Assembly: GCF_020567425.1 (NCBI RefSeq)
Contig: NZ_JAJCVJ010000001.1
Coordinates: forward strand, 1,240,001-1,304,000
DNA: 64,000 nt
DNA from: Salinirubrum litoreum
Lineage (GTDB): Archaea > Halobacteriota > Halobacteria > Halobacteriales > Haloferacaceae
Direction of reading: 5' to 3'
A program made the position numbers and the translations under genes. Of the stretch, positions 16,505 through 63,795 are shown piece by piece. Numbering within the stretch: the first letter of the stretch is position 1; every line of letters begins with the position of its first letter. The notes under the pieces are model-generated. The model saw only the letters and a list, made by a program, of their open reading frames with translations. It was not told where the DNA came from and did not search any database.

Positions 16505-16835
16505 TGAAAGGGGCCGACCGCTCGATCCATCCCGGACGACGCAAGCCGGGCGGGACCGGAGGTCCCGCTGGAAACCGGCGCGCCGCGCCGGTGACAGAGC
16601 GAGACCGGAGGTCTCGCCAGCAGTCGGGCGACTCTCGGGTCGCCCGACGACACTGGACTGAGGGCGGTCAGCGAGCTGACCGCCCGAGGGAAGCGCGCAG
16701 TGGAGTCCCGGATGCCTTCGTGAGTTTGCGAACAGGGCGAGAGCGAAGCCCTCGCCAGCAACCGGCGCGGAGCGCCGGTGACGAAGGCTCGGGAGAGCTT
16801 GTCTCTCCCGGTGGTCGAGCGGTCGGGGGCTTTCA
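16505..16835 (+). repeat. clamp and hairpin chain of copy A
   Basis: The left arm TGAAAG-GGG-CCGACCGCTCGA (16505-16525) pairs with the right arm TCGAGCGGTCGG-GGG-CTTTCA (16815-16835), apart from an internal GGG/GGG. Between the arms lie perfect hairpins. Examples are CGGGACC/GGTCCCG (16551-16567), GCGAGACC/GGTCTCGC (16599-16617), TCGGGCGAC/GTCGCCCGA (16624-16647), GGGCGGTCAGC/GCTGACCGCCC (16662-16685) and CGGGAGAG/CTCTCCCG (16790-16810). Confidence 0.8.
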
Positions 16836-28689: not shown

Positions 28690-29260
28690 GTGTGGGTTTC
28701 GTCGACGAGTGGTCGGTCGAGTATGTCACCAACAACGAGCGGTGAAAGCCCCCGGCGTCTCGACCGGCCGCGACTTGGTGTCGTTCGAGAGAGCGAAGCT
28801 CTCTCGTGATGACGAGAGACGCCGACGACGTCTCTCGAACCACGCTCCTCGGTCGGCGAGCCAGCAGGCTGGCTCACCTCCCTGCGGTGCTGACGGGCGA
28901 GCCTCGCCCGTCTGCTGGCGAGACCTCCGGTCTCGCTCTGTCACCGGCGCGGCGCGCCGGTTTCCAGCGGGACCGCCGGTCCCGCCCGGCTTCCGGCGTC
29001 GGGGCCGGACCGAGACGCCGGCCCCGTTCAGTCCCGCCCGGTGTACGCTGTCGAGGCGCACGCAACTCTGACAGACCAGTCGGTTTCAGCGCGAGCGCCT
29101 CCCTGTAACCGTCGGCTCGCCTGAGGCGGGTGCATCCCGCCGAAGTGCGCGACACGAGGCTCGCCCGAGGCAGCCCTACGCCGCCGAGGTGTGGTGCCCG
29201 AGGCGACCCTCCGTCGCCGAAGTGTCGCGCCCGCCCGTTCGACTGGTCGCGTGTCGTCTG
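28690..29260 (-). repeat. dispersed hairpin element, copy F (reverse)
   Basis: Read on the minus strand, this starts with the extended GACCAGTCG-to-CGACTGGT segment (29255-29065), which is nearly the same as in copy C. The clamp arms follow: TGAACG-GGG-CCGGCGTCTCG (29030-29011) and TCGAGACGCCGG-GGG-CTTTCA (28763-28743). Several hairpins lie between the arms. One arm differs from the consensus TGAAAG by a single base that breaks one pair. The conserved-flank hairpin module is absent. It fills the divergent gap between the small membrane gene and truD. Confidence 0.75.
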
Positions 29261-30921: not shown

Positions 30922-31262
30922 ACCAGTCAGACGGGCTGGCGCGAGTTCATTTCGCGCCGATGGTTGCAGGTAGGCCATCGCTGAAACCGACTGGTCCACC
31001 GCAGTTGCGTGCGCTTTCACAAATTCGGGTGGGACTGAAAGGGGCCGACCGCTCGATCCACCTCCGACGATTCAAGCACTGGACTGAGGGCTGGCGGGCT
31101 TGTCCCGCCAGCCCGAGGGAAGCGCGCAGAGAGTCGCAGGTGGTCGAGCGGTCGGGGGCTTTCACCGCTCGTTCTCTGCGACCGATTCGGCAACCCTCAC
31201 GTCTCCAACTGATTCGACAGCATCCACATCATCGACCGATTCGACCGAGTTCACACCTGCTT
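30922..31262 (+). repeat. dispersed hairpin element, copy B (compact)
   Basis: ACCAGTC (30922-30928) pairs with GACTGGT (30989-30995) and encloses GGCGCGA/TCGCGCC (30938-30958). The clamp arms TGAAAG-GGG-CCGACCGCTCGA (31036-31056) and TCGAGCGGTCGG-GGG-CTTTCA (31144-31164) hold one perfect hairpin, GGGCTGGCGGG-CTTGT-CCCGCCAGCCC (31088-31114). Constant flanks CTGGACTGA and GAGGGAAGCGCGCAG border it. The degenerate tail (31167-31262) runs up to the next gene. The GAC-rich tract and conserved-flank hairpin are absent. It fills the convergent gap after truD. Confidence 0.8.
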
Positions 31263-51329: not shown

Positions 51330-51451
51330 TCGAACGTTGTGGTCGACGTGGGAGGTGAAAAAGGTAGAGCCTGAGTCGGACTCCGTTACTGCGCTCGTAC
51401 TATGAGCCGCAGACTGGAACTGTACAGTAGCGCAAACCGCGACAACATCGA

Positions 51452-52165
51452 CACCGCTACGATTGCTAGCGCGGCCACCAGCGGAACCGCGACAGCATCA
51501 GCACCGCAACCGCGACAGCACCGCACCTCGAACCTCCCCAACCTCGCGGGGCGCTCCACACCGCGCGCCCCGCTCCCTCGCGCGTTTCTCGCGCGCCGAC
51601 CGCAACCGCACTGCGACACCCGAGTTGAGAATGTTGCTCACGTCACACCCACCAGTCGAGTGGGCTGGCGCGACACCTCGGCGACGGAGGGCCGCCTCGG
51701 GCACCACACCTCGGCGGCGTGGGGCCGCCTCGGGCGAGCCTCGTGTCGCGCACTTCGGCGGGATGCACCCGCCTCAGGCAAGCCGACGGTCGCAGGGAGG
51801 CTATCGCTGAAACCGACTGGTCCACCGAGAGTTGCACGATGGATCGCAGGTTCACCGGGTGGGACTGAAAGGGGCCGCGTTCTCGATCCACCTCCGACGA
51901 CGTAAGCAGAGCGAGAGCGAAGCTCTCGCGCCAGCAGTCGGGCGACTCCCGTGTCGCCCGACAACACTGGACTGAACGAGGGCGCGGAGCGAAGCGACGC
52001 GTCCTCGTGAAGGAAGCGCGCAACGAGTCGCAGGTGGTCGAGAACGCGGGGGCTTTCACCCCTCGTCGTCCGCGACCGATCCGTCCGAGTTGTCTGTGAG
52101 AGATTCGATAGAAGTGTCTCCAACCGACCCACCCGAGTTCACACCGACGATTCCGAGAAGAACCA
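51452..52165 (+). repeat. dispersed hairpin element, copy C (full)
   Basis: All modules are present: boundary palindrome CCGCTACGATTGCTAGCGC (51454-51472), GAC/CGC-rich tract, conserved flank (51524-51546) and hairpin GCGGGGCGC (51546-51554) / GCGCCCCGC (51565-51573). After these come the extended ACCAGTCG-to-CGACTGGT segment from 51651 and clamp arms TGAAAG-GGG-CCGCGTTCTCGA (51866-51886) and TCGAGAACGCGG-GGG-CTTTCA (52038-52058). Internal hairpins include GCGAGAGC/GCTCTCGC and TCGGGCGAC/GTCGCCCGA. A degenerate tail ends near 52165. It fills the gap between the PQQ lipoprotein and lipA. Confidence 0.8.
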
Positions 52166-55954: not shown

Positions 55955-56795
55955 ACAACGCTCGTACCGCAGACCGCGACCATGACAGCATCCGCACCGC
56001 AGACTGTGACAGCATCCGCACCGCAGACCGTGACAGCATCCGCACCGCAAACAGCAACGCTACTCGATCCGGGACAACCGGAATATTCGACCGCATCCGC
56101 GACCGCGACAGCACCGCAGACCGCCACTGCACAGCACCGCAACCGCGACCGCACCTCGATCCTCCCCAGCCTCGTGACAGAGCGAGAACGGAGCTCTCGC
56201 TAGCCCTCGTTCGGTTTCCTCACGAGGACGCACTCCGCACCGCCCGCGTCACTCCCTCGCACGCGTCAAGTCGCGCGCGCCGACAGCACAGCACCGCGAC
56301 GACCGACTTTCCACCACAACTCGCGCTACACTTACCAGTCGAGTGGGCTGGCGCGAGTTCATCTCGCGCCGACGGTCGCAGGTAGGCGCACACGCTGATC
56401 CGACTGGTCCACCCCAGTTGCGTGCGCTTTCGCAGATTCCACCGGGTGGGACTGAAAGGGGCCGGCGTCTCGACTGGTCCCCGACGCACCAAGCAGAGCG
56501 AGACCGGAGGTCTCGCCAGCCTGAGGGAAGCGCGCAGGAAGTCGCGGGCCATCGAGACGCCGGGGGCTTTCATTTCTCGTTCTCGCCGACCGACTCAACC
56601 GAGTTCTCTGCGACAGATTCGACCGAGTTCTCTGCGACAGATTCGACCGAGTTCTCTGCGACAGATTCGACCGAGTTCTCTGCGACAGATTCGACCGAGT
56701 TCTCTGCGACAGATTCGACCGAGTTCTCGCCGACCGATTCGACCGAATTCTCTCCAACAGAGATTCACCCACGCGAGTCGTCCACCACGTCTCGT
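55955..56795 (+). repeat. dispersed hairpin element, copy D (full, with loop insertion and tandem tail)
   Basis: The GAC/CGC-rich tract (55955-56151) includes two tandem 24-bp units (55992-56039). The conserved flank (56152-56174) is followed by GTGAC ... GTCAC, whose loop has swollen to about 75 nt and holds extra hairpins. The ACCAGTC-to-GACTGGT segment starts at 56334. Clamp arms are TGAAAG-GGG-CCGGCGTCTCGA (56453-56473) and TCGAGACGCCGG-GGG-CTTTCA (56552-56572) around GCGAGACC/GGTCTCGC (56498-56516). The tail is a clean 24-bp tandem array. Confidence 0.8.
56601..56744 (+). repeat. 24-bp tandem repeat, six units
   Basis: Units start at 56601, 56625, 56649, 56673, 56697 and 56721. The first five share GAGTTCTCTGCGACAGATTC plus four more bases; the sixth varies. 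There are no spacers, so this is not CRISPR. The unit length is a multiple of three, so one frame reads TDSTEFSA repeats. Other element copies carry the same unit in degenerate form. Confidence 0.9.
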
Positions 56796-63212: not shown

Positions 63213-63795
63213 CACCGCTACTCGTGCTAGCGCACCGACGAGATGACGCACCCGCGACAGCACCCGCAGACCGCGACAACACCGCAGACCGCGACAACAC
63301 CGCAGACCGCGACAACACCGCAGACCGCGACAACACCACTACTCGTGCTAGCGCGAGGAACCGCACCGCGACAGCACCGCACCTCGGTCCTCCCCAGCCT
63401 CGGGGTTCTCTCCGCACCGCCCGAACCCCTCCCTCGCGCGTTTCTCGCGCGCCGACCGCAAACCGCACCGCGACACTGAACTGAAGCGCCGACTCACGAC
63501 ACGTTTACCAGTCGAGTGGGCTGGCGCGAGTTCATCTCGCGCCGACGGTTGCAGGGAGGCGCTCGCGCTGATCCGACTGGTCCACCGGGAGTTGCGTGAT
63601 GGGTCGCAGATTCCACCGGGTGGGACTGAAAGGGGCCGAGAGCGCGGGGGCTTTCACCTCACGTTGTCCACGACAGCTTCACCTGAGTTCTCTGCGACCG
63701 ATTCGACAGCAATCACATCACTCAGAGACGTTCATCGCTCGTCCTCTCCGACACACTCGACCGAAGTCACTTCTCGCAGAGGATTTCACCCCTCT
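63213..63795 (+). repeat. dispersed hairpin element, copy E (full order, collapsed clamp)
   Basis: Boundary palindromes at 63213-63233 and 63334-63354 flank a GAC/CGC-rich tract with a four-unit 18-bp tandem. The conserved flank (63380-63402) and hairpin GGGGTTC (63402-63408) / GAACCCC (63423-63429) follow. ACCAGTCG (63507) to CGACTGGT encloses GGCGCGAG/CTCGCGCC. The clamp is reduced to one small hairpin (63627-63656), with the internal chain gone. A degenerate tail ends near 63795. It fills most of the gap after the CinA-like gene. Confidence 0.8.
63265..63336 (+). repeat. 18-bp tandem repeat, four units
   Basis: The unit CGCAGACCGCGACAACAC is repeated exactly at 63265, 63283, 63301 and 63319, with no spacers. 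It is the cleanest form of the GAC/CGC-rich tract in the window. Confidence 0.92.

Follow-up and report, generated by a model that had tools for sequence, protein, structure and literature searches.

The window analysed here, a stretch of 64,000 nucleotides of the Salinirubrum litoreum genome (positions 1,240,001 to 1,304,000 of contig NZ_JAJCVJ010000001.1), contains several copies of an element whose ends read TGAAAG-GGG-stem and stem-GGG-CTTTCA, with stems that differ between the copies. The question raised by copy C (Table 1) is whether the matched differences reflect compensatory change under selection for pairing or the repair of one arm from the other, as the original prediction, based on sequence alone, had proposed, and in which molecule any such pairing would be kept.

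The predicted arms are exact in copy C, TGAAAG-GGG-CCGCGTTCTCGA ... TCGAGAACGCGG-GGG-CTTTCA, and the stems stated for copies A, B, D and F, each with the opposite arm changed to match, are present as well. The internal GGG/GGG was predicted to be unchanging, and it is constant even where the outer clamp is altered. The outer hexamers were also said not to change, which fails as a strict rule, since copy F and several genomic copies have TGAACG, mismatching CTTTCA. The one mismatch attributed to the D-type stem of copy F is a G-U wobble. What the prediction missed is the larger, modular element, present class-wide, of which the clamp forms the outer part.

Table 1. Coordinates of copy C, its parts and the other copies in the window.
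Feature	Position	Strand	Basis
Copy C, whole clamped element, 193 nt	51866..52058	+	sequence, RNA fold
GGGAC lead-in, within near-invariant GGGYGGGACTGAAAGGGGC box	51861..51865	+	
Outer clamp 5' arm TGAAAG (helix 1)	51866..51871	+	paired in fold; covaries in other genera
GGG, 5' half of constant 3x3 G loop, part of GGGGC direct repeat	51872..51874	+	invariant in alignment A1
P1 5' arm CCGCGTTCTCGA	51875..51886	+	12 of 13 pairs of the helix doubly changed in A1
Body type I of copy C: P2, P2b, P3, P4, constant purine loops	51887..52037	+	
Two-hairpin module inserted in copy C body	about 51909-51964	+	
P1 3' arm TCGAGAACGCGG	52038..52049	+	covariation, fold
GGG, 3' half of G loop, part of GGGGC direct repeat	52050..52052	+	invariant in A1; body deletion at L288
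Outer clamp 3' arm CTTTCA	52053..52058	+	sequence, fold
Copy A, 331 nt, stem CCGACCGCTCGA	16505..16835	+	
Copy F, 288 nt, TGAACG clamp, D-type stem with one G-U	28743..29030	-	
Copy B, 129 nt, simple body	31036..31164	+	covariance model, 87.8 bits
Copy D, 120 nt	56453..56572	+	covariance model, 64.7 bits
Collapsed sixth copy, 30 nt, body lost	63627..63656	+	
Composite repeat region around copy C	51430..52110	+	BLAST depth profile

As RNA, copy C folds at -119.7 kcal/mol (z -9.1, i.e. 9.1 standard deviations below dinucleotide shuffles), compared with -112.1 kcal/mol for the minus strand. The fold is a rod made of the 6-bp clamp, the 3x3 G loop, the 12-bp P1, further helices and two inserted hairpins. 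Six GGGACTGAAAGGGG sites with at most two mismatches occur in the window, where 0.38 are expected, and the BLAST depth profile shows that the flanks of the copy C region are common to dozens of other intergenic copies in the same genome. A protein-coding role of copy C was rejected, the overlying ORFs being R/P/S-rich and spurious in appearance; copies overlap long spurious ORFs, and some may have been annotated as small hypothetical proteins. A 24-nt unit, GCGACCGATTCGACCGAGTTCTCT, forms variable arrays directly 3' of many S. litoreum copies (56580-56760 in the window), in frame as ATDSTEFS repeats.

In the whole S. litoreum genome (4.06 Mb) there are 64 exact GGGACTGAAAGGGG sites, compared with none for the reversed control, and about 70 distinct copies when the TGAACG variants are counted; these counts rest on pattern and model searches. 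The copies range from 22 nt (TGAAAGGGGCCGGGGGCTTTCA, a bare clamp) to 348 nt. Their layout is the TGAAAG/CTTTCA clamp, the GGG/GGG loop and the 12-bp P1, followed by shorter helices that covary and whose purine-rich loops are constant. P1 is of several types (ACCGCTCGA, GCGTCTCGA, CGCTCTCGA, GTCTCTCGA and others), each with its matching partner arm. In the longer copies whole hairpin modules are added at fixed joints, some nested in others, and through such nesting the body of the element varies from 0 to over 320 nt. Three known classes were rejected for this layout. The regular spacing with spacers of a CRISPR repeat is not met, the copies being dispersed over the genome on both strands; a bulge-helix-bulge splicing site does not fit the symmetric GGG/GGG loop, by sequence reasoning; and the GUGAUGA box of a C/D box RNA is present in some modules only, in one orientation.

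The exact 15-mer of the element is present in 210 of the 391 genomes of the class Halobacteria and in 61 of 86 genera, with very uneven counts (0 to 74 per genome). A covariance model, R1, built from 26 copies finds 31 matches in S. litoreum and matches in 20 of 148 genomes sampled across the phylum. All the matches listed come from the family or order of the window, and none of the genomes listed from other orders has a match; a further 108 genomes of the sample without matches were not itemised by taxon. In several genomes where the exact 15-mer is absent, most of them from a single genus (g2) of the window's family, there are from 10 to at least 25 model matches each. Their clamps are CAAAG/CTTTG or CGAAG/CTTCG with GGG/GGG kept; thus the outer clamp changes in pairs in other genera, and the outer helix also covaries. 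Where the full element occurs in a named record, the organism belongs to the Halobacteria. The non-haloarchaeal matches to the 15-mer (e.g. Cyclobacterium, Corallococcus, Octadecabacter) have no right clamp. The 15-mer occurs at 16 loci in viral contigs, where the sequences shown have no right clamp and look like chance, and the element was not matched in the plasmid collection searched. Rfam 15 gave no relevant family, at E 0.5 and 5, for copy C or for 11 loci whose simple copies represent the two body types. The element was not found in the open-access literature searched; subscription papers and preprints were outside the coverage.

All helices of the element covary class-wide. In alignment A1, 96.3% of the cells are paired (74.6% when shuffled), the covariation score is 0.545 (0.152 when shuffled), and 22 of the 33 pairs have changed on both sides. 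When the partner is slid by one to three columns the score falls to 0.054-0.078. For 78 copies from other genomes that were not used for the model, the score is 0.469 (0.134 shuffled) and 26 of the 33 pairs are doubly changed. The scores are 0.343 (0.109) for the S. litoreum copies and 0.511 (0.148) for the altered-clamp copies. It should be noted that the fitting of alignments A2-A5 to the model structure biases the counts in favour of that structure, and that the last three sets are among those fitted; A1 was aligned by sequence, yet its structure was derived from A1 itself. The original prediction would be refuted by arms that change independently. Such change is true of the terminal repeats of the carrier MITEs described below, where 25% of the positions are not Watson-Crick, but is not seen in P1, where non-standard pairs amount to 3-7%.

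Pairing in RNA predicts that, on one strand only, one-sided changes giving G-U are tolerated and those giving A-C are not. In the first 13 pairs of P1 the G-U to A-C ratios are 61:14 in other genomes, 36:15 in S. litoreum and 20:10 in a further set, i.e. 117 to 39 in the pool (p 3e-10); such p-values are optimistic, because the copies are related. In the control, the terminal repeats of the carrier MITEs read in the same orientation, there are 23 G-U and 25 A-C (Fisher p 7e-4 against P1). The tolerance of one-sided change is therefore strand-specific, with G-U kept and A-C avoided on the GGGACTGAAAGGGG strand, and the excess in P1 together with the symmetric control argues against a mutational strand bias and for selection at the RNA level on that strand. 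The plus strand also folds better in 72% of the copies (p 3e-7).

Copies at a fixed chromosomal site bear on the same question. In the Natrialbaceae the element stands at the same place upstream of a gene in 13 of 33 loci (including L113, L139 and L154); we take this gene to be endA and the next one in L113 to be trpS, both named from their sequences. Relative to the L282 copy as reference, the endA copies have two to seven double changes in P1 with at most one mismatch, L276 being near-identical. The covariation score is 0.467 (0.160 shuffled) in a set of 14 matches, one of which (L297) sits elsewhere in its locus. Of eight endA copies tested, five resemble endA copies from other genomes far more than they resemble the remaining copies in the same genome; L285 and L290 show no clear grouping with other endA copies. 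Gene conversion from other loci was rejected as the source of this variation, most endA copies having their best match among the endA copies of other genera. Pairing is thus kept in standing, vertically inherited copies. Loss is also seen at this site. In L288 the body is precisely absent between GGGGC direct repeats (GAAAGGGGCTTTC), L302 and L297 are near-minimal clamps, and many genomes have no trace of the element. The G loop forms this direct-repeat pair, so its two halves are the likely endpoints of body deletion.

The orientation of the copies toward neighbouring genes, which were called by a custom amino-acid composition score, is biased outside S. litoreum. Among single copies that lie between co-directional genes, 57 are sense and 15 antisense there, compared with 16 and 12 in S. 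litoreum, where no bias is seen. It is chiefly the downstream gene that accounts for the bias, as would be expected if transcription runs outward from the 5' side of the element; this gene lies on the strand of the element for 107 of 160 copies in other genomes, often 80-120 nt away. The same figures may be taken to favour a cis-regulatory leader (riboswitch-like) of the downstream gene. We consider this very unlikely, because 37 downstream genes are diverse by their start sequences and unrelated, a promoter-like conserved stretch lies between the element and the endA start codon and is retained in genomes without the element, and S. litoreum has no orientation bias and tens of copies per genome are present. 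A terminator or insulator hairpin between genes would account for an intergenic, GC-rich hairpin with CTTTC after the stem. There is little to recommend it, however, since no U tract was found directly after the hairpin, only CTTTC; the relation to the strand of the upstream gene is weak (75 versus 49 single copies); and termination does not need conserved interior loops.

The bodies within the clamp are of two unrelated kinds. The second (CUUCAGUCGUCUCAGCGACCCCUAU...AUAUGUCGCUGAGCGACC) is found mostly in one family of genomes. It is of the CCCCUAU...AUAUG type and has matched stems of its own (L119, L122, L134, L195, L197, L198, L204; L309, L324-L345). A head-to-head pair of elements, about 31 nt apart with a palindromic spacer between them, is a frequent arrangement in Haloarcula and others. 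In such pairs (L098, L100, L115, L128, L143, L144, L146, L149) the spacer is TTGATCAA with TGGCCA centres, possibly divergent promoters. The 3' clamp arm is tandemly duplicated (GGGGCTTTCACC..., about 50-60 nt apart) in L016, L022, L033, L054 and L078 and in L423, L425 and L427. A large number of modules form almost perfect palindromes that close in triloops. One module of two hairpins, GUGGUUCGA-hp-UCGUCAUCACGA-hp-UCGAACGAC, is found in either orientation (L146, L171 and L186 versus L016, L031 and L207), which points to the insertion of modules at the DNA level.

These features give some support to an explanation at the DNA level only, in which quasi-palindromes are perfected by template switching or arm-to-arm repair in replication without any RNA function. 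The nested near-perfect hairpins, the triloops, the precise loss of bodies between GGGGC repeats and the module in both orientations are all in its favour. Nevertheless, it is unlikely. Arm repair alone predicts equal numbers of G-U and A-C, as in the control but not in P1; the mismatched loops (GGG/GGG, A-A, GAA/GA, GCA/GA), which repair should erase, are constant class-wide; and the orientation bias toward neighbouring genes is against it. The repair of one arm from the other, the alternative named with the original prediction, is therefore not sufficient alone but may contribute, and the predicted compensatory change under selection for pairing is supported by covariation, the endA orthologues, the G-U excess and the orientation bias.

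In several genomes the element lies between terminal inverted repeats (TIRs), GGTAGTGTTCAGATA ... TATCTGAACACTACC, and the distance from their ends to the clamp is about 51 nt for one and 52 nt for the other. The two TIRs are present in 17 and 20 of 100 copies, both in 11, compared with 1.2% of random stretches, and in none of 64 copies in S. litoreum. Flanking 8-bp repeats are GCCCGTGT at L245, TTCGGACG at L249 and TCCCGAAC at L248; 8-bp target duplications were not seen at several other MITE-borne loci checked. Halobellus salinus has a compact 697-bp element (L233:817-1514) with the TIR and an IS6-family transposase (NF033587, E 1.2e-51), which is likely to be the autonomous partner of the MITE-borne copies. 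Other mobilisers were rejected: IS1595 (PF12762) is absent from the genomes richest in TIRs, and one DDE_Tnp_1 (PF01609) locus has the TIR pair nearby, within a neighbouring IS6 element. Some copies are thus the interior of IS6-type MITEs; the window copies have no TIR and are not assigned there. Around the S. litoreum copies other repeats form a composite of roughly 680 bp, and the Halorubrum-like copies have another conserved 5' flank. In the Halorubrum-like loci L416-L431 this flank contains a conserved G-rich GAGGCTGGGGAGGCGTGAGGTGCGG, and a similar motif, CTGGGGAGG, is seen in other genera. The RNA core is the common denominator of the three flank contexts. The TIRs and 8-bp duplications in several genomes might suggest that the hairpin is a mere MITE interior, kept for transposition as a DNA cruciform or transposase site. 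This can hardly be so, because most copies, including all of S. litoreum and the Halorubrum-like ones, lack the TIR, and because of the RNA-strand asymmetry and the retention of the element at endA in several genera.

The clamp is thus probably the outer helix of a noncoding RNA of Halobacteria that is structured, dispersed and borne on mobile elements, although neither transcription nor a function has been shown. The plus strand would be transcribed, probably from the 5' flank toward the next gene, for which there are no transcript data, and the RNA may fold into a rod of clamp, G loop, P1, P2, P2b, P3 and P4, with a protein binding to the constant purine loops or the loops making up a tertiary motif. 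As for the molecular task, the most cautious guess is a rod that binds protein; no protein partner has been shown. Copies would spread by transposition on different carriers, hairpin modules would be gained and lost at the DNA level, whole bodies would drop out between the GGGGC direct repeats, and selection at the RNA level would keep the surviving copies paired. We lean, tentatively, toward an RNA-bearing, non-autonomous mobile element that is partly domesticated; its role, as host regulator, parasite RNA or both, is undecided. Among the points against this reading, the S. litoreum copies have neither orientation bias nor IS6 TIR, so that mobilisation there is unexplained, and the palindromic triloop modules and the module in two orientations are as expected of DNA-level events. 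A bolder reading, which we hold to be distinctly less likely than not, is that the clamp is a docking cassette. Exchangeable bodies, of two or more unrelated types, and nested hairpin modules would be placed in a constant clamp with its G-rich loop, and promoters, divergent or single, would drive their transcription into a functional RNA or RNP needed by the mobile element or the host.

The nearest described elements are the PATEs, MITEs and SMR-A elements of Haloquadratum (PMC3119063). They are likewise transposase-free haloarchaeal repeats in dozens of copies with palindromes, with small elements nested in the palindromes of others and core loss by repeat-mediated deletion. In contrast, the relevant passages deal with a single species and describe no covarying RNA structure, whereas in the present element an RNA core is conserved across the class, and TIRs and 8-bp duplications are present in some genomes. 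The absence of TIRs and target duplications that marks PATEs (IS605-type) is not met by the MITE-borne copies, and the boundaries of the window copies are unresolved. With IS6-family insertion sequences and MITEs the element shares the TIR GGYAGTGTTCAGATA and the 8-bp target duplication in several genomes, but the window copies lack the TIR and the RNA core occurs in at least three flank contexts. The omega RNAs of IS200/IS605 and the HEARO RNA are also structured, tied to mobile DNA and present in many copies per genome; unlike them, the present element has no Rfam match at either threshold. REP/BIME palindromes of bacteria and the GC clusters and double-hairpin elements of fungal mitochondria are likewise dispersed, mobile, nested hairpins, but the present element is much larger, multi-helix, archaeal and under RNA-strand selection.

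A structured RNA so abundant and so well supported by covariation is rare, and this one, for which Rfam has no entry, spans most of an archaeal class that has been well studied. The dozens of paralogues per genome, together with the inherited copies, constitute a natural experiment in which the fold is kept while nearly every paired base changes, and the element also shows how hairpin modules are inserted and lost.
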